Source of the DNA: Natronomonas marina
Lineage (GTDB): Archaea; Halobacteriota; Halobacteria; Halobacteriales; Haloarculaceae
Reading direction: 5' to 3'
Length of the DNA stretch: 64,000 nucleotides
Assembly: GCF_024298905.1 (NCBI RefSeq)
Contig: NZ_CP101154.1
Location: 1,922,001-1,986,000 of the forward strand
A model generated the notes under the pieces. That model was given only the letters and a program-made list of their open reading frames with translations. It did not search any database and was not told the DNA's origin. Of the stretch, positions 20,882-59,655 are shown piece after piece. Every line of letters begins with the position of its first letter. Position 1 is the first letter of the stretch. The position numbers and the translations under genes were made by a program.

Positions 20882-22708
20882 TCAGTAACTGCGGACCTTC
20901 GGCTCGTACTCCTTGTTCTCGCCTTCGAGGATGACGGGCTTGTAGTAGAGGTCGGGGGTGCCGCCGTCCCAGGCGATCATGGTGTGCTTGAGCCACTCGT
21001 CGTCCTTCCGCTCCTGGTGTTCCTGCCGCCAGTGGGCGCCGCGGAACTCATCGCGGGCCAGTGCGCCGAGGGTGATGGTCTCGGCGATGTCGATGAGGTT
21101 CCGCGTCTCGATGGTGTGGATGAGGTCGGTGTTGAACGTCCGGGAGGGGTCGGCGACGGCGACGTCCTTGTACCGCTCGCGGCACTCCCGGATGGTCTCC
21201 AGGGCCGTCTTCAGGCCCTCCTCGTTGCGGAAGACGTTGACGTTGCGCGTCATCGCCTTCTGGAGGTCCTCGCGGATTTCGGCGTGGTTGGTGCCGTCTC
21301 GTTCGAGCATGTCCTCCACGCGTGCGCGCTCCATCTCGACGGCGTGGTCGACGACCTCGGCGGGTTCGACGAGGGCGCCGTCGGCCGCGACATCGCCGTC
21401 GGTCTCGAGGGCACCGGGGTCGACCGGGGTGTCGAGGTCGGTCTCGTCCTCGCTGCGGGCGGAGGGACCCGTCGGCACCTCGGCGGTCCCGAGGTCCGTC
21501 CCGGCGGCGTGGCGGCCGGCGCGGGCGCCGAAGACGATGAGTTCCGGCAGGGCGTTGCCGCCCAGGCGGTTCGAACCGTGGACCGAGGCACACGCACACT
21601 CGCCGGCGGCGTACAGGCCGTCGATGCAGGTCTGGCCGTGCTCGTTGGTCTCGACGCCGCCCATGTGGTAGTGCTGGCCGGGTTTGACCGGCATCGGTTC
21701 CTCGACGGGGTCGACGCCCTCGAAGTCCTCCGCGAGGTGGATGATGTTCTCCAGGCGGTCATAGATGCGCTCCTCGCCGAGATGCCGCATGTCGAGGTGG
21801 ACGTACTCGTCCTCGATGCCGCGGCCCTGGTTGACCTCGGTCAACTCCGCGCGGGCGACGACGTCCCGGGAGGCCAGTTCGCCGGCGTTGTTCGCGTAGC
21901 CGTACTCGAACATGAACCGCTCGCCGTTGCCGTTGTAGAGGATGCCGCCCTCGCCGCGGACGCCCTCGGAGATGAGCACGCCCGTCGACGGCAGCGTCGT
22001 CGGGTGGAACTGGACGAACTCCATGTCCTCGACGGGGACGCCGGCCCGGTAGGCCATCGCCGGCCCGTCGCCGGTGTTCGCGACGGCGTTGGTCGTGTGG
22101 TCGAAGACCTGTCCGTCGCCGCCGGTCGCGAGGATGACGCCGTTGGTGGCCCGGAAGCCGACGATGTCGCCCGACTTGATGTCGTAGGCGACGACGCCGT
22201 GACACTCGCGGTCCTCGGGGTCGTCGTGGTCCGTCACGGCGAGTCGGGAGACGTAGAACTCGTCGTAGACCGTGATGCCCCGCTTTACGACCTGCTCGTA
22301 CATCGTGTGCAGCAGGTGGTGGCCGGTCTCGGCGCCCGCGTAGGTGGTCCGCGGGAAGGACAGGCCGCCGAAGGGCCGCTGGGAGACCCGGCCGTCGTCC
22401 TCCCGGGAGAAGGGCATCCCCCAGTGCTCGAGTTGGACGACCTCCTCGGGGGCGTCCTGTGCCAGTTTCTCGATTGCGGGGGCGTCGCCGAGGTAGTCCG
22501 ACCCCTTCATCGTGTCGTACGCGTGCAGTTCCCAGTCGTCGCCGTCCCGCAGGGCGGCGTTGATGCCGCCCTCCGCGGCGCCGGTGTGCGACCGGACCGG
22601 GTGTAACTTCGTGACCATGGCGACGTCGGCGCCCTCCTCGTGGGCCGCGATGGCCGCACGGAGACCCGCTCCGCCGGCGCCGACGACGATGACGTCGTGT
22701 TCGTGCAT
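20882..22708 (-). CDS. sdhA: Succinate dehydrogenase flavoprotein subunit
   Basis: A 608-residue FAD subunit, last in an sdhCDBA operon. HDVIVVGAGGAGLRAAIAA is the FAD dinucleotide-binding motif at the N-terminus, and RSHTGAAEGGINAAL contains the His expected to bind FAD covalently. HGSNRLGGNALPELIVFGARAGR is the conserved C-terminal FAD contact. It oxidises succinate to fumarate in the TCA cycle and passes electrons to SdhB. A stretch around residues 400-450 (SARSEDETDLDTPVDPG) is an acidic haloarchaeal insertion. Confidence 0.96.
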   Translation of the reverse strand: MHEHDVIVVGAGGAGLRAAIAAHEEGADVAMVTKLHPVRSHTGAAEGGINAALRDGDDWELHAYDTMKGSDYLGDAPAIEKLAQDAPEEVVQLEHWGMPFSREDDGRVSQRPFGGLSFPRTTYAGAETGHHLLHTMYEQVVKRGITVYDEFYVSRLAVTDHDDPEDRECHGVVAYDIKSGDIVGFRATNGVILATGGDGQVFDHTTNAVANTGDGPAMAYRAGVPVEDMEFVQFHPTTLPSTGVLISEGVRGEGGILYNGNGERFMFEYGYANNAGELASRDVVARAELTEVNQGRGIEDEYVHLDMRHLGEERIYDRLENIIHLAEDFEGVDPVEEPMPVKPGQHYHMGGVETNEHGQTCIDGLYAAGECACASVHGSNRLGGNALPELIVFGARAGRHAAGTDLGTAEVPTGPSARSEDETDLDTPVDPGALETDGDVAADGALVEPAEVVDHAVEMERARVEDMLERDGTNHAEIREDLQKAMTRNVNVFRNEEGLKTALETIRECRERYKDVAVADPSRTFNTDLIHTIETRNLIDIAETITLGALARDEFRGAHWRQEHQERKDDEWLKHTMIAWDGGTPDLYYKPVILEGENKEYEPKVRSY

Positions 22709-22746
22709 TGGTGATGTGTTTGGACTGAACTCTCTTTAGCGTGTTT

Positions 22747-23631
22747 CTACCAGAACTTCAGGTTGCTCTTGACCGCCTCGCGCTTCAGTTCCTGGATGTG
22801 CTCGGTCAGCGGGATGTCCTTCGGACACACCTCGGTACAGGAGAACTGGGTCTGGCACCGCCAGACGCCGTGCTCCTGCTCGATGATGTTGAGGCGGTGT
22901 TCCTGCATGTCCTCGCCCTCGCGTTCGTCCATGGCGAAGCGGTAGGCCTTGTTGATGGCCGCCGGCCCGAGGTACTCGTTGTCGCCCGCCGCGATGTTGC
23001 ACGACGACATGCAGGCGCCACACCAGATGCATCGCGTCGACATCTTGATCTTCTCGCGGTTGGCGCGGTCCTGCCGTTGCTCCTCGAGTTCGCCCGACGG
23101 CAGGTCGTTGGTCTGGAAGTACGGCTCGACGGACTCCATCTGGTCGTAGAAGTGCTCCATGTCGACGACGAGGTCCTTGACCACCTCGGCGTGCGGGAGC
23201 GGTTCGATGCGGACCGGCCAGTCCAGGTCCGACATCTGTGTCTTGCAGCCGAGTCGCTGGCGGCCGTTGATGAACAGCGCGTCGGACCCACAGATGGCCT
23301 GCCGACAGGAGTGTCGGAAGGTCAGCGAGGAGTCGAAGTGGTCGCGGGCGAAGATGAGCGCGTCCAGCACCGTCATCCCCTTCGTGAAGGGGACCCGGAA
23401 CGTGTCGAACCGGGGGTCGGACTTGCCCTCGACCTCCGGGTCGTAGCGGAACACCTTCAGCTTCACCGTCTCGTCGGTCTCGGACAGTTCCGCCTCGGCG
23501 CGCTGCCGCATGTCGGCGCGGTCGTGTTTGGCCGTCAGTCGGCGCTGCTGGTGAGTCGATTCGGCCTCGGTCTCCACGTCGGCCTCGGCTTCCGTCTCGG
23601 CTTCGGACTCTTGTTCTATTTGCGTACTCAT
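22747..23631 (-). CDS. sdhB: Succinate dehydrogenase iron-sulfur subunit
   Basis: A 294-residue protein with three cluster sites: the [2Fe-2S] loop CRQAICGSD...LGC (Asp replacing one Cys, as in E. coli SdhB), then CIWCGACMSSC and CQTQFSCTEVCP for the [3Fe-4S]/[4Fe-4S] clusters. An acidic 45-residue N-terminal extension (SEAETEAEADVETEAES) precedes the fold. The ATG at 23631 follows the sdhD stop by 2 bases, so translation is probably coupled. Confidence 0.96.
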   Translation of the reverse strand: MSTQIEQESEAETEAEADVETEAESTHQQRRLTAKHDRADMRQRAEAELSETDETVKLKVFRYDPEVEGKSDPRFDTFRVPFTKGMTVLDALIFARDHFDSSLTFRHSCRQAICGSDALFINGRQRLGCKTQMSDLDWPVRIEPLPHAEVVKDLVVDMEHFYDQMESVEPYFQTNDLPSGELEEQRQDRANREKIKMSTRCIWCGACMSSCNIAAGDNEYLGPAAINKAYRFAMDEREGEDMQEHRLNIIEQEHGVWRCQTQFSCTEVCPKDIPLTEHIQELKREAVKSNLKFW

Positions 23632-23633
23632 GG

Positions 23634-23999
23634 TTACACCAGGTTGGTCATCGCCAGCGAGACGCGGATGCCCTGGACGACCAGCATGACGCTGGCGCCG
23701 ACGAGCAGCCACTTGACGGCCGTCTTCGGGGTTCCCTCCAGCCCCTGGTTGACGAGGGCGTTGTAGACGCCGTTGACGCCGTGGAACGTCGCCGTCACGA
23801 GGAACAGCACCATCGTCGAGAAGTACCCGACCTGGCTCATCCGCGCGGTCGTGCCGGCGAAGGTTATCTCGGCTGCGTGGTTGACGAAGTGCAACAGCAG
23901 GAAGTGATACGCCAGGACCACCACGAGGAACGCGGCGGTGATGCGCTGGAGCAGCCAGCGCGTGCCCTTCGGCTCGAACGAGGAGTAGTAGTCCGCCAT
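23634..23999 (-). CDS. sdhD: Succinate dehydrogenase membrane anchor subunit D
   Basis: A 121-residue membrane protein with three predicted transmembrane helices (RITAAFLVVVLAYHFLLLHF, STMVLFLVTATFHGVNGVY, WLLVGASVMLVVQGIRVSL). His residues in the first and second helices are candidate haem or quinone ligands. It anchors SdhAB and passes electrons to menaquinone. The start lies one base after the sdhC stop. Confidence 0.9.
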   Translation of the reverse strand: MADYYSSFEPKGTRWLLQRITAAFLVVVLAYHFLLLHFVNHAAEITFAGTTARMSQVGYFSTMVLFLVTATFHGVNGVYNALVNQGLEGTPKTAVKWLLVGASVMLVVQGIRVSLAMTNLV

Positions 24000-24000
24000 C

Positions 24001-24390
24001 TCAGAACCCTCCCAGGAAGGTCGGAACGCTGGCGACCGTGATGGCAGCCGTGATTATCAGTGCGGCGTAGAACGCCTTGTCCTGTGCCTCCAGCCCCACA
24101 CCGAGGTCGACGAACAGCAGTCGGACGCCGTTCAGGATGTGAAAGACCGCGACGGCCAGCAGGCCGACCTCGAGGAACCGCACGACGAGCAGTTCCTCCA
24201 GCCCCTGCAGCGTCGTGGTGTAGGTGGTCCCGTCCACCGTCGCCGTGCTCAACACGGCGATGTGTGTAAACAGGTAGCCGATGAGTACCCAGCCGGTGAA
24301 CTTGTGGAACACCCAGGCCCACATCCCGGCGGAGAACTCCCGCCACCGCCCGAAGTCCTCTATCAGACCCCGGTCGTACGATTGACTCAT
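24001..24390 (-). CDS. sdhC: Succinate dehydrogenase cytochrome b subunit C
   Basis: A 129-residue membrane subunit with three helices. [22 protein letters not shown] and [21 protein letters not shown] contain the conserved His residues expected to ligate haem b. ATG 24390 is chosen because [16 protein letters not shown] is the normal haloarchaeal N-terminus and a TATA-like TACTATACC ends about 25 bases upstream. It is first in sdhCDBA. Confidence 0.92.
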
Positions 24391-24414
24391 GCACGGTAGC
24401 GTCAGTTCCCCGCC

Positions 24415-24424
24415 GGTATAGTAG
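24415..24424 (-). promoter_or_regulatory. TATA-like promoter of sdhCDBA
   Basis: TACTATACC on the minus strand, 25-34 bases upstream of the sdhC ATG, consistent with a leaderless operon mRNA. Confidence 0.6.
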
Positions 24425-24542
24425 TTACCTTCCGGGAACGTGTCACAGGGGTCTCCGGGGTCGTGGACGGGCGCCCGCCTCGAAACGTGGAGTGGCAACC
24501 GCGAACGGCGGGCGGAAAAACGGTGCGTCGGCTACCGCGACG

Positions 24543-24920
24543 TCAGCCCTCGATGGGGATGGGCTCGCCGCGGGGCTCGATGCCCTCCTGGATGGGGAGG
24601 GTCACCTCGAGGACGCCGTTGGTGTACGACGCGGAGATGGCGTCGGTCTCGACGTCCTTCGGGAACCGGAACCGTCGGTGGTAGGTGCGCTTCCGGCCGC
24701 GGTCCTCGTCGACGTGCTCGGCGGCGACGTTGAGGACACCGCCGTCCCAGGTCAGGTCGATGTCCTCGCGCTCGAAGCCGGGCGCGTCGATGCTGAGGAC
24801 GAACTCACCGTCCTCCTCGTACAGTTCGTAGTCGTTACCACCGGTGAACCCCTCGCCGAAGAGCCGGCTCGGGAGGTCGAGGCTCTGTCGCCAGCTGCTC
24901 GGGGTCGTTGGCTCGAGCAT
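24543..24920 (-). CDS. Hsp20/alpha-crystallin small heat-shock protein
   Basis: A 125-residue chaperone. The alpha-crystallin domain runs from about residue 28 to 115: YELYEEDGEFVLSIDAPGFEREDIDLTW, then RKRTYHRRFRFPKDVETDAISASYTNGVLEVTLP, and a C-terminal IPIEG resembling the I-x-I oligomer-binding motif. It holds unfolding proteins in a soluble state. ATG 24920 is supported by a strong ribosome site (GAGGTGA) 7 bases upstream, unusual in this mostly leaderless genome, with a TATA-like ATTTTTTACG about 45-55 bases upstream. Confidence 0.93.
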   Translation of the reverse strand: MLEPTTPSSWRQSLDLPSRLFGEGFTGGNDYELYEEDGEFVLSIDAPGFEREDIDLTWDGGVLNVAAEHVDEDRGRKRTYHRRFRFPKDVETDAISASYTNGVLEVTLPIQEGIEPRGEPIPIEG

Positions 24921-25028
24921 GGGTCTGTCACCTCGAGTGCATCGGACGATTGTTCGTGGTTCGTAAAAAATCTTTCTAATCTTGCTAGCAAACACCACAA
25001 TACCGACTCGAACCGACTGAACGGCCAG

Positions 25029-26039
25029 TTATTCGCGGAGCGAGGCGTGGTGGGCCTCGAACGCCCGGCGCGTCTGTTCGTCCAGCGCGACCAGGTGACA
25101 CAGCGGGTTGCCGGGATAGACGAGCGGGTTCTCCAGAACGCCGACCAGCAGGCCGGTGAACGGTGCCTCGACGACCACCGACTCGGTCTTGAAGGGGTTG
25201 GTGATGGTACAGATGGGATCGCCGGTCTCGACCAGCGACCCGCGGTCGGCGTGCATCTCGACGAGACCGCCGGCGTCGGCCCGGAGCCAGGTCTTCTCGT
25301 CGGCGCCCTCGATGACGGTCCGCCAGCCCGGCCACTTGACCCGCTCGGTCTCGCGCATTCCCAACTCCGCCATCACCGAGAGGACGCCCTCGAGTGCCGC
25401 GTCGATGAGCGGGCGCTGGAACCGGTGGGCCTCGCCCAGTTCGACGGTGATGGTCGGCGTCCCGGCCTCCGTGGCCGCCCCGCGGAGCGTTCCCTCCGGC
25501 CCTTCGCTGGAGATGACGACGTTCGAGGCGAAGGCTTTCGCCAGCCGTTCGACCCCCTCGTGGTCGGTGTCGGCCCGGACGTGGAGTACGTTCGTCCGGC
25601 CCCGCGTCGAGGTGTGGAAGTCGACGCCGAAGTCGCACGGTTCGAGGAAGTTCCGGAAGACCCGGCCAGCGATGCGGTCGGCGCTGGTACCCGTCTCCGT
25701 CCCGGGAAACGAGCGGTTGAGGTCCCGGTCGTAGATCGGGAGGTACCGTTGCTGGGCGATGAAGCCGGGGACGTTGAGGACCGGCAGACAGACCAGGGTG
25801 CCCGCGAGATCGGTGTGGTCCCACTCTTGGGCCACCTCGCGGACGATTTCGATGCCGTTGAGTTCGTCGCCGTGGGTCGCCGCCGAGAGGAACAGGGTCG
25901 GTCCCTCGCGCTCGCCGTTGACGATGGTCACGGGAACGCGCACGGGGTCCCCGAGATAGGTCTCGCTCACGGTGTAGCGGAGGTCCGCCGTCTCGCCGGG
26001 CCGGACGACCCCGCCGTCGTACGTGAATGCACCGCACAT
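25029..26039 (-). CDS. Succinylglutamate desuccinylase/aspartoacylase family hydrolase
   Basis: A 336-residue M14-like zinc hydrolase. Zinc ligands are predicted in ATHGDELNG (His and Glu) and DFHTSTRGR (His), with TITVELGEAH as the later catalytic Glu region. A C-terminal biotinyl-like beta domain (GGLVEMHADRGSLVETGDPI) follows. It would hydrolyse an N-acyl or amide bond on an amino acid or peptide. It is divergent from a RimK-retropepsin fusion, a pairing seen in predicted peptide-tagging loci. TTTATACC upstream supports ATG 26039. Confidence 0.87.
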   Translation of the reverse strand: MCGAFTYDGGVVRPGETADLRYTVSETYLGDPVRVPVTIVNGEREGPTLFLSAATHGDELNGIEIVREVAQEWDHTDLAGTLVCLPVLNVPGFIAQQRYLPIYDRDLNRSFPGTETGTSADRIAGRVFRNFLEPCDFGVDFHTSTRGRTNVLHVRADTDHEGVERLAKAFASNVVISSEGPEGTLRGAATEAGTPTITVELGEAHRFQRPLIDAALEGVLSVMAELGMRETERVKWPGWRTVIEGADEKTWLRADAGGLVEMHADRGSLVETGDPICTITNPFKTESVVVEAPFTGLLVGVLENPLVYPGNPLCHLVALDEQTRRAFEAHHASLRE

Positions 26040-26060
26040 ACGGGTTCCAGGTGCGGACAC

Positions 26061-26070
26061 GGTATAAACC
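26061..26070 (-). promoter_or_regulatory. TATA-like promoter of the aspartoacylase-like gene
   Basis: GGTTTATACC on the minus strand, 22-31 bases before the ATG at 26039, consistent with leaderless transcription. Confidence 0.6.
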
Positions 26071-26132
26071 CGTCCGGCGCCGACCGTGGTGACCGCCATC
26101 GTTTTGCTCTGCGGCGTTCCACGTTCTATACT

Positions 26133-27479
26133 ATGGAAACGGACCTCACCGTCGGCGTCCTCAGCCTCCACAGCTCCAAGGAGTCGAAGGCCATCCTCAA
26201 CGCCGCCGACGACCTCGGCTTCGGGACCGAGTGGCTCCGCGCGGAGAACACCGTCGTCGAGGTCGACGACGGCGAGGTGACGCTGGAACCCGACGTCGAC
26301 ATCGTCATCAATCGGCTGCTGCTGTCGAAGGAAGAACAGCCGGCGGAGGCGCTGGGGCTGGCGACGATGCTCGACCGGGCACGGCCGATGCTGAACACGC
26401 CGACCGCGACCATGACGGCGATGCACAAGTTCGCCACCGGGGTCGCACTCGCCGAGGCCGGCGTCTCGGTCCCGGACGCGCTGCTCGCGCTGTCGGGCGA
26501 GACGCTGAACGCCCGCCGGGAGCGGTTCGGCCCGGAGTTCGTCTACAAGACCGCCATCGGCACCCACGGCGGCGGGGCCTGGAAGCTGGACACCGACGAC
26601 CAGCTCAACCCGATGGTCGGCTCCAGGCAAGCGTTCCTCCAGGAGCTGATCGAGCACGACGAACAGCGGCACCACGACCTCCGCATCTACGTCGTCGGTG
26701 ACCGCATCGTCGGCGCGATGAACCGCTACGCTCCGGAGGGCGAGTGGCGGACGAACGTGGCCCTGGGCGGCGAGGTCGAGGACGCCACGGACGACCTCCC
26801 CGAGGAGGTCGTCACGATGGCGAAACGCGCGACCGACGTGGTCGGGCTGGACTACTCCGGCGTCGACATCGTCCAGGGCGAGGAGGGCTACTACGTCCTC
26901 GAGGTCAACCCCACCGCCGGGTTCCGGGGGCTGTTCAAGGCGACCGGACGGTCGCCCGCCCCGCACATCGTCAGACTCGCCGTCGAACGCGCCGGCGGTG
27001 AGGTCGACGAGGAGCGGGTGTACGAGCTGTCGGCGAACCTCGACGATTCGCGGCCGGCGTGTATGCCGAGAAAGCAGGCCAAATCCCCGGTCGAACCCCT
27101 CGTCATCGGCTACATCGAGGAGGTCGCCGTCATGGGAACGACCGGACAGCAGACCGTCCTGGCGAAGTCCGACACCGGCGCGACCCGGACGAGCATCGAC
27201 GCCCAGCTCGCCGCCGACATCGGCACCGGCCCGATCAAGGACATCGTCAAGGTTCGCTCCGGGAGCGTCAAGGCCGGAAAGTCCCGGCCCGTCGTCGACC
27301 TGGTGGTCGGCATCGGCGGGACCCAGCACACCGTCACGGCGAGCGTGGAGGACCGCAGCCACATGGACTACCCGATCCTGCTCGGCCGGGACATCCTCCA
27401 GCACTACCACGTCGACGTCCGCGAGCGCGCCGACGAGGCCGAACCCCCCGCGCTGTCCGACACCGAAGAGGAGGAGTGA
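26133..27479 (+). CDS. RimK-type ATP-grasp ligase fused to a retropepsin-like (RimB) domain
   Basis: A 448-residue fusion. Residues 1 to about 300 form an ATP-grasp ligase (TPTATMTAMHKFATGVALAEAG, FVYKTAIGTHGGGAWKL, GYYVLEVNPTAGFRGL), which would add amino acids, typically Glu, to a protein or peptide C-terminus. Residues 310-448 form a retropepsin-like domain with DTGATRTS starting at Asp347 and ILLGRDIL, as in RimB/DUF785 proteins usually encoded separately. The divergent neighbour is an aspartoacylase-like hydrolase. Together they suggest reversible peptide tagging; ribosomal S6 itself is absent from archaea, so the target is unknown. Confidence 0.9.
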   Translation: METDLTVGVLSLHSSKESKAILNAADDLGFGTEWLRAENTVVEVDDGEVTLEPDVDIVINRLLLSKEEQPAEALGLATMLDRARPMLNTPTATMTAMHKFATGVALAEAGVSVPDALLALSGETLNARRERFGPEFVYKTAIGTHGGGAWKLDTDDQLNPMVGSRQAFLQELIEHDEQRHHDLRIYVVGDRIVGAMNRYAPEGEWRTNVALGGEVEDATDDLPEEVVTMAKRATDVVGLDYSGVDIVQGEEGYYVLEVNPTAGFRGLFKATGRSPAPHIVRLAVERAGGEVDEERVYELSANLDDSRPACMPRKQAKSPVEPLVIGYIEEVAVMGTTGQQTVLAKSDTGATRTSIDAQLAADIGTGPIKDIVKVRSGSVKAGKSRPVVDLVVGIGGTQHTVTASVEDRSHMDYPILLGRDILQHYHVDVRERADEAEPPALSDTEEEE

Positions 27480-57814: not shown

Positions 57815-59593
57815 ATGACTGCGGACCCGATACCGTACGGTGACTACGAGGAGGGCCGGAACTGCAACTACTGGGCGCTGGACCCGACACTGCAGTTCGA
57901 GGCCCGGCGCGTCTACCCGGACGACGAGTTCGAGTGGGCCGAACCCGTCCTGGAGGAGTTCGGCGAGGCGCTGGGCCACCGGCTGGCCGACACCGCCGAC
58001 CGCATCGACGAAGCGGGCCACGAACTCGAGTCATTCGACAAGTACGGCGACCGGCTCAACGAGGTTCAGTACCACCCGCTCGTCCACGAGCAGGAGGAGG
58101 TCGTCTACGAGGAGTTCGGCGTCACCCACGACGCCTTCCACGCACCGCCGGGACGCGACGAACCGGTCGGGCTGACCCACCCGCTGATGATGCAGGCGCT
58201 GCTTTCCTACGTCGACGCCGGCTTCACCTGCCCGGTGTCGATGACCAACGGCGCCGCCATCGTCCTCGAGAAGTTCGACGACGGCGCCCTCGAGGAGTAC
58301 TTTCAGGGGCTGACCGCCCGAAACCTCGAGGAGCACATCGAGGGCGCGATGTTCCTCACCGAGGAGCAGGGCGGCTCCGACGTCGGCGCCAACGAGGTTC
58401 GTGCCGAGCCCACCGAGAAAGACGACGTGTACGAACTGTACGGCGAGAAGTGGTTCTGTTCGAACATCGACGCCCAGGGCGCGCTGGCGCTGGCCCGGAC
58501 GCCCGACGCCCCCGACGGCGTCGAGGGGCTGTCGCTGTTTCTCGTCCCGCGGACGACGCCCGACGGCGAGGTCAACGACGCCCACTTCCGGCGGCTGAAG
58601 GACAAGCTCGGCACCATCTCGGTCCCGACCGGCGAAATCGACTACCAGGGCGCCGAGGCCTACCTCGTCGGAGAGGAGGGCGGGGGGTTCCGGTACATGG
58701 CGGAGATGATGAACTTCGAGCGACTGACGAACGCCACGGGCGCAATCGGCGTGATGGGCCGGGCGCTCCTGGAGGCGAAGGTCCGGGCGGCCCGCCGGGA
58801 GGCTTTCGGTGACACCATCGACGAGTACCCGCTGATGCGCCGGGACCTGGTGGACATGACCGTCGACTACGAGGCGGCGGCCGCCTTCTCCTTCGAGGCG
58901 GCGAGGTTGCTCGACGAGCGTGAACGGAAGGGCGACGATTCGGCGGCATACCAGCTGATGCGGCTGTTCATCCCCGTCGTCAAGTACAAGACCGCCCGGA
59001 TGTCCGTCGAGACGACGTCGTACGCGATGGAGATACTGGGCGGCAACGGCTACGTGCGCGAGCACACGACGGAGCGCCTGCTACGGGACGCCCAGGTGCT
59101 GCCCATCTGGGAGGGCCCCTCGAACATCCTGGCACTGGACACACTGCGGGCGCTGAACCGCGAGAACGCCCACGAGGCGCTGATCCCCTACGTGCAGGAG
59201 CGCCTCGACGGCGTCGAGCACCCGCTACTCGAGGAACTGGCCGACACCGTCGAGGACGAGTTCCTCGAGTTGCAGAACGCGCTGGCGACGCTGGCCACCG
59301 AGGACGGCGACTACGCCCAGTACCACGCGAAGCGGCTGGCTGACCTAATCTTCGACGTCGTCACGGCGGCGCTGCTGCTCGACGAGGCCCAGACCGCCGT
59401 CGACGAGGACGGCGACGGCCGGAAGGCACTGGTTGCCCGCCGGTTCGTCGAGACGCGGTTCGAGGAGGGCGAGGCCTACGGCGTCACATCCGGCGACCGC
59501 CTCGCCATGGAGGACGACGCCTTCGCGGCCATCGCCCACTACGCCGGCGTCGAACCGGCGTCGCTGGTCGAGACCGCGCCCGCCGACGACTGA
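57815..59593 (+). CDS. AidB-type acyl-CoA dehydrogenase
   Basis: A 592-residue, long-form acyl-CoA dehydrogenase. MFLTEEQGGSDVGANEV and KWFCSN form the FAD site; GNGYVREHTTERLLRDAQVLPIWEGPSNI is the motif with the likely catalytic Glu or Asp. A C-terminal helical extension of about 150 residues distinguishes AidB/long-chain forms. It is divergent from enoyl-CoA hydratase, suggesting one acyl-CoA pathway. Confidence 0.9.
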   Translation: MTADPIPYGDYEEGRNCNYWALDPTLQFEARRVYPDDEFEWAEPVLEEFGEALGHRLADTADRIDEAGHELESFDKYGDRLNEVQYHPLVHEQEEVVYEEFGVTHDAFHAPPGRDEPVGLTHPLMMQALLSYVDAGFTCPVSMTNGAAIVLEKFDDGALEEYFQGLTARNLEEHIEGAMFLTEEQGGSDVGANEVRAEPTEKDDVYELYGEKWFCSNIDAQGALALARTPDAPDGVEGLSLFLVPRTTPDGEVNDAHFRRLKDKLGTISVPTGEIDYQGAEAYLVGEEGGGFRYMAEMMNFERLTNATGAIGVMGRALLEAKVRAARREAFGDTIDEYPLMRRDLVDMTVDYEAAAAFSFEAARLLDERERKGDDSAAYQLMRLFIPVVKYKTARMSVETTSYAMEILGGNGYVREHTTERLLRDAQVLPIWEGPSNILALDTLRALNRENAHEALIPYVQERLDGVEHPLLEELADTVEDEFLELQNALATLATEDGDYAQYHAKRLADLIFDVVTAALLLDEAQTAVDEDGDGRKALVARRFVETRFEEGEAYGVTSGDRLAMEDDAFAAIAHYAGVEPASLVETAPADD

Positions 59594-59655
59594 CGCCGCC
59601 GGCGACCAGCGGGCCGTTCCAGTAGGGGTAAGTCGCCCCGCCCCGAAGACCGTGC

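Follow-up and report, generated by a model that had tools for sequence, protein, structure and literature searches.

In Natronomonas marina two divergently oriented genes may together make up a system that lengthens runs of glutamate at C-termini and cuts them back, one such terminus being that of the ligase itself. They lie in a window of 64,000 nucleotides (the whole stretch of DNA analysed: positions 1,922,001 to 1,986,000 of the forward strand of contig NZ_CP101154.1, assembly GCF_024298905.1). Gene A (25029–26039, minus strand, ATG at 26039 and stop at 25029) encodes a 336-residue zinc hydrolase of the AstE/AspA family, and gene B (26133–27479, plus strand, ATG at 26133 and stop ending at 27479) a 448-residue protein in which a RimK-type ligase is fused to a retropepsin domain; 93 bp (26040–26132) separate the two divergent starts. 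We propose that the RimK half of B would join glutamate, using ATP, to a C-terminal glutamate, that the RimB-type half would, as a dimer, cut long glutamate runs back, and that B's own flexible tail, which ends in Glu-Glu, would be one acceptor, either in cis within an oligomer or in trans. B would thus carry its own primer and its own trimmer. The zinc hydrolase A would take up the resulting small molecules as substrates, whether oligoglutamate of a few residues or a glutamate derivative bearing an acyl group, and return glutamate to metabolism. We put the probability of this proposal as a whole at about 0.42.

Residues 8–279 of B (26154–26969) match the RimK family model TIGR00768 (rimK_fam) with 146.8 bits against a cut-off of 143.4. 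In a profile search of the Protein Data Bank (PDB) the top matches are the RimK entries 5zct and 4iwx (E ~1e-32), both of which we take to be E. coli RimK, with LysX matching more weakly (E ~5e-29 to 3e-27), and the best 50 of 1,325 Foldseek matches of the B model also concern this half. Seven residues, Lys139, Asp182, Arg206, Asn208, Asp245, Glu257 and Asn259, align with positions in RimK 5zct and are invariant in all 122 main orthologues of B; their roles are presumably those of the corresponding ATP-grasp residues. Assignment of B to other branches of the superfamily was rejected on the scores of the equivalog models, whether for LysX/ArgX (118.2 bits against 275.6), MptN (116.4 against 350) or CofF (46.7 against 300). 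A third RimK-family ligase in the genome (G000:C1:297552–298148) matched rimK_fam and several equivalogs, all below cut-off over the part tested.

The RimB-type retropepsin domain occupies residues 320–431 (27090–27425). PF05618 matches residues 367–431 with 42.7 bits against a cut-off of 27, covering the C-terminal half of the model, and an hhalign comparison of the domain with stand-alone RimB gave a probability of 96.3 and an E-value of 1.7e-9 over 103 columns, with the DTGA motifs of both proteins aligned. Matches in the structural database were 9g59, 9g58 and 2pma. The candidate catalytic residue, Asp347 (codon 27171–27173), sits in the sequence KSDTGATR, and the whole DTGA motif is invariant in the 122 main orthologues. 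Among 16 paralogues of B, DTG is kept in nine and changed or lost in the rest; decay is possible in these proteins, and the conservation of the motif in the main line is therefore meaningful. The genes at loci L096, L183, L184 and L185 are B paralogues, some B paralogues having changed or lost DTG.

An earlier, sequence-only reading of this DNA had described an ATP-grasp ligase fused to a retropepsin-like domain with Asp347 in DTGA, beside a divergent aspartoacylase-type gene. Both open reading frames and the Asp347 codon were read where it had placed them, and a single protein does hold a conserved ligase of the glutamate type together with a conserved retropepsin motif. Loss of active-site residues among orthologues, which it had raised, was not seen: Asp347 and the seven ligase residues are present in every one of the 122. 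Its suggestion that the locus tags and trims peptides is partly supported by the ligase and retropepsin motif classes, by the active sites and by the association of the genes; the activity itself stays a proposal drawn from sequence. That B combines a ligase with a protease that cuts polyglutamate seems to us fairly probable.

Beyond the retropepsin motif B ends in a short acidic tail (residues 429–448; 27417–27476), whose last two codons (27471–27476) encode the Glu-Glu of the proposed acceptor end. Tails have a median of 19 residues after Asp428 and are diverse, with 114 distinct sequences among the 122 orthologues, and yet their ends are almost constant. Glutamate occupies the last position in 111, the second last in 100, the third last in 45 and the fourth last in 52, while aspartate, which occurs further in, is found at neither of the last two positions (0/122 each); 95 of the 122 end in Glu-Glu. 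When the set was reduced to 37 representatives below 80% identity, 33 ended in Glu and 29 in Glu-Glu, and of 80 named B records, which overlap the 122 orthologues in species, 78 end in Glu and 64 in Glu-Glu with none having Asp at either position. Glu-Glu ends are rare in other open reading frames of the same loci, being found in 7/336 after filtering (chosen non-B frames of at least 120 residues with more than 13% Asp plus Glu and less than 11% Arg) and in 8/618 without it, the final residue of the 336 being Glu in 50 and Asp in 34. A second background, made of families found in at least four loci with B excluded, gave 1/169. These backgrounds consist of predicted frames, some of which may not be genes, and four frames that clustered with B without matching it were counted as non-B, two of them passing the filters.

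A near-fixed glutamate at the last two positions followed inwards by a mixed acidic tail would not be predicted from the general acidity of halophile proteins. By analogy, it is what would be predicted for an acceptor of a RimK-type ligase, and the proposal draws on the fact that the known acceptors of this ligase superfamily, RpsF and LysW, end in Glu. E. coli S6 ends in GDSEE and Pseudomonas RpsF in DNADE (PMC11957791). The LysW that adjoins a LysX-type gene in the N. marina genome ends in EDWGE, as do 27 of 30 LysW loci, although this is a weak control as the search pattern itself required the motif. The tail also has a bearing on trimming. According to PMC11957791, Pseudomonas RimB removes C-terminal runs of six or more Glu, and not Asp, and a run of five is cut at a very slow rate when its first Glu is the residue encoded at the end of the protein. 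In B tails the longest stretch of encoded Glu has no more than five residues in 106 of the 122 and no more than four in 87, so that the protease would tend to leave a tail as encoded alone and to cut one that has been lengthened. This argument is only suggestive, as it carries a threshold from one enzyme to a distant one and 16 tails exceed it. We place the chance that B's own tail serves as an acceptor a little below even. The fullest form of the idea, in which B would be self-primed in the manner of glycogenin, building an alpha-glutamate chain on its own Glu-Glu end that the retropepsin cuts and whose released pieces A recycles, is put forward tentatively.

The tail could also be read as a mimic. 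B may tag and trim some other protein with a C-terminal Glu, a haloarchaeal counterpart of S6 whether ribosomal or not, with its own tail imitating the substrate and damping the enzyme. This is how bacterial RimK and RimB work, and a tethered Glu-Glu end could fill either active site as a pseudosubstrate. The sequence-only reading had held that S6 is missing from archaea and that the haloarchaeal target is unknown. The first point was borne out here, as ribosomal S6 (PF01250) was not found in the N. marina genome, the control matching in 10 of 14 genomes, nor in any archaeal control genome including Methanosarcina acetivorans, and S6 was rejected as the target of B in this genome. The second holds in part, since B's own Glu-Glu tail is a candidate. 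Further evidence for another protein as target comes from the family f19, inferred to be Methanosarcina-like, where a stand-alone rimB lies beside rimK in all 15 genomes with a RimB scoring more than 100 bits; no S6 was found in the archaeal controls. On the other side, no such target was found for B, the proteomes not having been scanned for conserved Glu ends, and this explanation alone leaves the absence of Asp from the last two positions unaccounted for. We regard it as rather unlikely. The f19 loci themselves (L299–L313) carry a bacterial-looking rimB-rimK pair, with S6 not found in the control M. acetivorans, and in the two genomes whose frames were read the f19 RimK ends in RGKG, not Glu-Glu.

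The fusion itself was confined to the order in a survey of 294 genomes of the phylum: among the listed matches with E 1e-30 or better, full-length matches were present in 47 of 53 genomes within the order and in none of the other 241. No match outside the order extended past model position 362, and the sole one that reached it crosses three stop codons. Weaker PF05618 matches are present in other families. A match on a Vibrio plasmid was rejected as a fusion, rimK and rimB being separate genes there.

Gene A matches PF24827 (AstE_AspA_cat) with 167 bits against a cut-off of 25. His56, Glu59, Asn108, Arg109, His142 and Glu200 are invariant in 30 aligned sequences, and we take their roles, on the basis of the alignment, to be those of the equivalent residues in aspartoacylase and DoeB. 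The model of A has a mean predicted local distance difference test (pLDDT) score of 82.7 and, among the best 50 entries of the VIA-align list, resembles other AstE/AspA-family structures with Z-scores of 29.9 to 3cdx and 29.5 to the N-acetyl-diaminobutyrate deacetylase DoeB (6twm), its closest named relative. Z is 24.4 to CphZ and 15 to CCP5, a deglutamylase of the wider M14 fold. A falls below each named equivalog that it matched, scoring 106.8 bits against 402.7 for DoeB, 34.4 against 180 for aspartoacylase and 22.3 against 305.65 for AstE, and the STRGR and AHxF motifs, invariant in A, are not those of the DoeB chains aligned with it. A could either remove acyl groups or hydrolyse oligoglutamate. 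The fold shared with DoeB and with CphZ, which hydrolyses the beta-Asp-Arg dipeptide in the metabolism of the polymer cyanophycin, is one of the grounds for the proposal; that A acts on products released by B is conceivable, though doubtful.

The resemblance to DoeB allows a different division of labour, in which B would ligate glutamate to an N-acyl amino acid or dipeptide and A would remove the acyl group. Mammalian RIMKL and aspartoacylase act in this way on N-acetylaspartate, the closest named relative of A is a deacetylase and A and B are inherited together. Such a pathway has against it the scores of A, well short of the cut-offs for DoeB, aspartoacylase and AstE, and it leaves the retropepsin domain unexplained; we think it improbable. 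The resemblance to CphZ suggests in turn that B might make a small molecule or free poly-alpha-glutamate, as a store or counter-ion, to be degraded by the retropepsin and A much as cyanophycin, once made by its synthetase, is degraded by cyanophycinase and a dipeptidase. Pseudomonas RimK is described as making poly-alpha-glutamate, with stimulation by RimB (PMC11957791). The entry 5zct is titled a poly-alpha-L-glutamate peptides synthetase, and A has the fold of CphZ. If the product were free, however, the enzyme would have no need of a conserved Glu-Glu end, and we know of no polymer from these organisms, so that we judge a free polymer unlikely.

A and B form a unit in their distribution. 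Among 146 genomes of the order, counting as present only strong matches (at least 482 bits for B and 393 bits for A) and as absent the weak ones (E-values no better than 4e-51 for A and 3e-19 for B), 120 hold both genes, two B only, two A only and 22 neither (Fisher's p = 1e-21, with no correction for relatedness). Completeness is 72–86% in the four discordant genomes. Those with neither gene are spread over 14 genera and 10 families, 14 of the 22 being at least 90% complete, and in five of the 14 genera other members hold both genes. Two of the A genes counted may be paralogues, in G015 (54% identity, on another contig, B lying at a contig end) and in G101 (60%, 433 kb from B); on a stricter reading both are B-only genomes, giving six discordant genomes of which one, G101 (99% complete), is complete. 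The genes are adjacent (less than 600 nt apart) in 95 of the 120 genomes and divergent in every one of the 95. In a further 17 they are divergent with 1.5–4.7 kb between them, in seven they are far apart (12 kb to 3 Mb) and in one A is on another contig. A likewise lies in the flank of B in 71 of 80 named loci, some of the remaining nine having little DNA on that side. The association in other genomes that the sequence-only reading had anticipated is thus found, and the pair is conserved across the order and so is not due to chance. At L082, L083 and L104 (family f7) two or three genes stand between A and B, which are still divergent; one, of 489–517 residues, has the look of what may be a polysaccharide flippase.

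The joint presence and absence of A and B, together with the occurrence of the divergent pair on plasmids of Halolamina and Halorarius, is one ground for the proposal. If the two genes were instead neighbours by old synteny only, with no common pathway, a generally stable region would be expected, and there are signs of one: A also lies upstream of, and on the same strand as, what we take from their sequences to be succinate dehydrogenase genes (20882–24498, minus strand, 3' of A), in an order that is conserved, with sdhC no more than 300 bp from A at 16 of 29 loci, a number that rises to 19 when the limit is set at 1.4 kb. Seven of nine plasmid paralogues of B, moreover, lack an intact close relative of A. 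Synteny does not readily account for joint absence from 22 of 146 genomes in 14 genera and 10 families with four discordant genomes, all incomplete, for the divergent pair on two plasmids or for the seven genomes that keep both genes 12 kb to 3 Mb apart (the A of G101 may be a paralogue). It seems to us very improbable.

The plasmid loci differ among themselves. On a Salinirubellus plasmid, A-like pieces of 57–74% identity with no single open match (L326, 8858–9384) lie directly downstream of the B paralogue. Beside the B paralogue of a Haladaptatus pallidirubidus plasmid is an AstE/AspA gene that is 27% identical to A and, at that identity, was rejected as a relative of the same kind; an annotated glutamate-cysteine ligase family gene (L322, 9450–10508) is found near this paralogue and the distant AstE/AspA-family gene. 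Annotated universal stress protein genes adjoin several plasmid paralogues (L325, L326 and L328), a setting that suggests another role for the ligase half.

Several observations weigh against the proposal that B extends its own tail and that A recycles the trimmings. Neither an activity nor a product nor a modified protein has been observed for this B/A system. The ligase half does not reach the S6-ligase equivalog PRK10446 (63.3 bits against a cut-off of 331), and the Desulfotalea psychrophila RimBK hybrid cut polyglutamate and showed no ligase activity on Pseudomonas RpsF (PMC11957791). The AlphaFold2 model of B has pLDDT below 50 over residues 342–448 and gives no structural support for the retropepsin fold. 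Haloarchaeal proteins are acidic in general, and the 122 orthologues behind the tail counts are related, so that the counts are not independent; 27 of them lack the Glu-Glu end and 11 lack a terminal Glu, while 16 already encode six or more consecutive Glu. The paralogues at L184 and L185 keep Glu-Glu though DTG is gone, so the link between this ending and the protease is not a strict one. Finally, nine haloarchaeal plasmid paralogues of B were examined, and an intact close relative of A adjoins only two; of the other seven, one has A pieces, one a distant family member and five no A within the stretch.

Between A and the succinate dehydrogenase genes, which lie outside the proposed system, is a presumed small heat-shock-like gene (24543–24998) with no match in 28 other loci with A in view. 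A scan of the 93-bp gap between A and B for a sigma-70-type promoter gave no match, archaeal promoters not having been scanned for. Elsewhere in the window ARAGORN reported a tRNA-like gene with an undetermined four-base anticodon (59534–59628).

B is 78–84% identical to Natronomonas records, and the gene pair is also present in named records of Haloferax, a genus with good genetics. If the proposal is correct, haloarchaea would have a protein glutamylation cycle whose writer, eraser and acceptor are all parts of one polypeptide, and the question of the archaeal RimK target would be reduced to one mass measurement, that of the enzyme's own C-terminus. A positive result would point to a widespread and apparently unstudied glutamate modification or polymer in organisms for whose life in salt glutamate and acidic proteins are of central importance. 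A 2009 review of the neighbourhoods of ATP-grasp amidoligases may already predict the domain pairing. In the openly licensed literature, mostly titles and abstracts, we found neither the haloarchaeal fusion nor its Glu-Glu tail nor the partner A described, though earlier genome surveys may note the domains, and three Haloferax locus tags that may belong to these genes matched no paper; nor were autoglutamylation, haloarchaeal polyglutamylation or a writer, eraser and acceptor in one polypeptide found among the best-ranked matches there. A text search of a survey of haloarchaeal annotation issues (PMC8305020) found RimK and aspartoacylase unmentioned. The association of aspartoacylase-like genes with RimK and RimB, cited as known in the sequence-only reading, could not be confirmed in the openly licensed literature as judged by titles and the beginnings of abstracts.

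PMC11957791 and PMC12239564 show that these classes of enzyme, and a hybrid of RimB and RimK, are already known; what we propose as new is the order of the fusion, the archaeal setting without S6, the built-in acceptor and the partnership with A. Among the closest known systems is RimK-RimB of Pseudomonas, in which a RimK-family glutamate ligase is likewise paired with a glutamate-removing retropepsin containing DTG and the acceptor is a C-terminal Glu (PMC11957791, PMC7343187, PMC4741518). There the two activities are encoded by two genes, whereas here they are in one fused protein; the target there, RpsF, was not found here, where B's own tail bears Glu-Glu; and the place of RimA is taken by the neighbour A. 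In the RimBK hybrid of D. psychrophila both domains are also in one protein, and its protease half was shown to be active, but RimB is N-terminal to RimK (PMC11957791) rather than C-terminal as in B. With the domains in opposite order the two fusions are probably independent, and fusion in both orders suggests that joining these activities may have been useful more than once. Pseudomonas aeruginosa RloA is a further polyglutamate-cutting retropepsin with an ATP-grasp partner, RloC, and cuts RpsF carrying eight Glu; in contrast to the domain in B it carries a signal peptide, is secreted and is not joined to RloC (PMC12239564). For A, the closest named solved relative is the DoeB/EutE deacetylase (6twl, 6twm), of the same fold, although A lies far below the DoeB equivalog and its invariant STRGR and AHxF differ in DoeB. 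The cyanophycin cycle with CphZ (8ein, 8eip) is a further parallel: an ATP-grasp enzyme synthesises the polymer, a protease cuts it and a hydrolase of the AstE/AspA fold acts on dipeptides, the three being encoded together in some genomes (PMC10206079); its polymer is a different one, its protease is unrelated and CphZ is further from A than is DoeB (Z 24.4 against 29.5).

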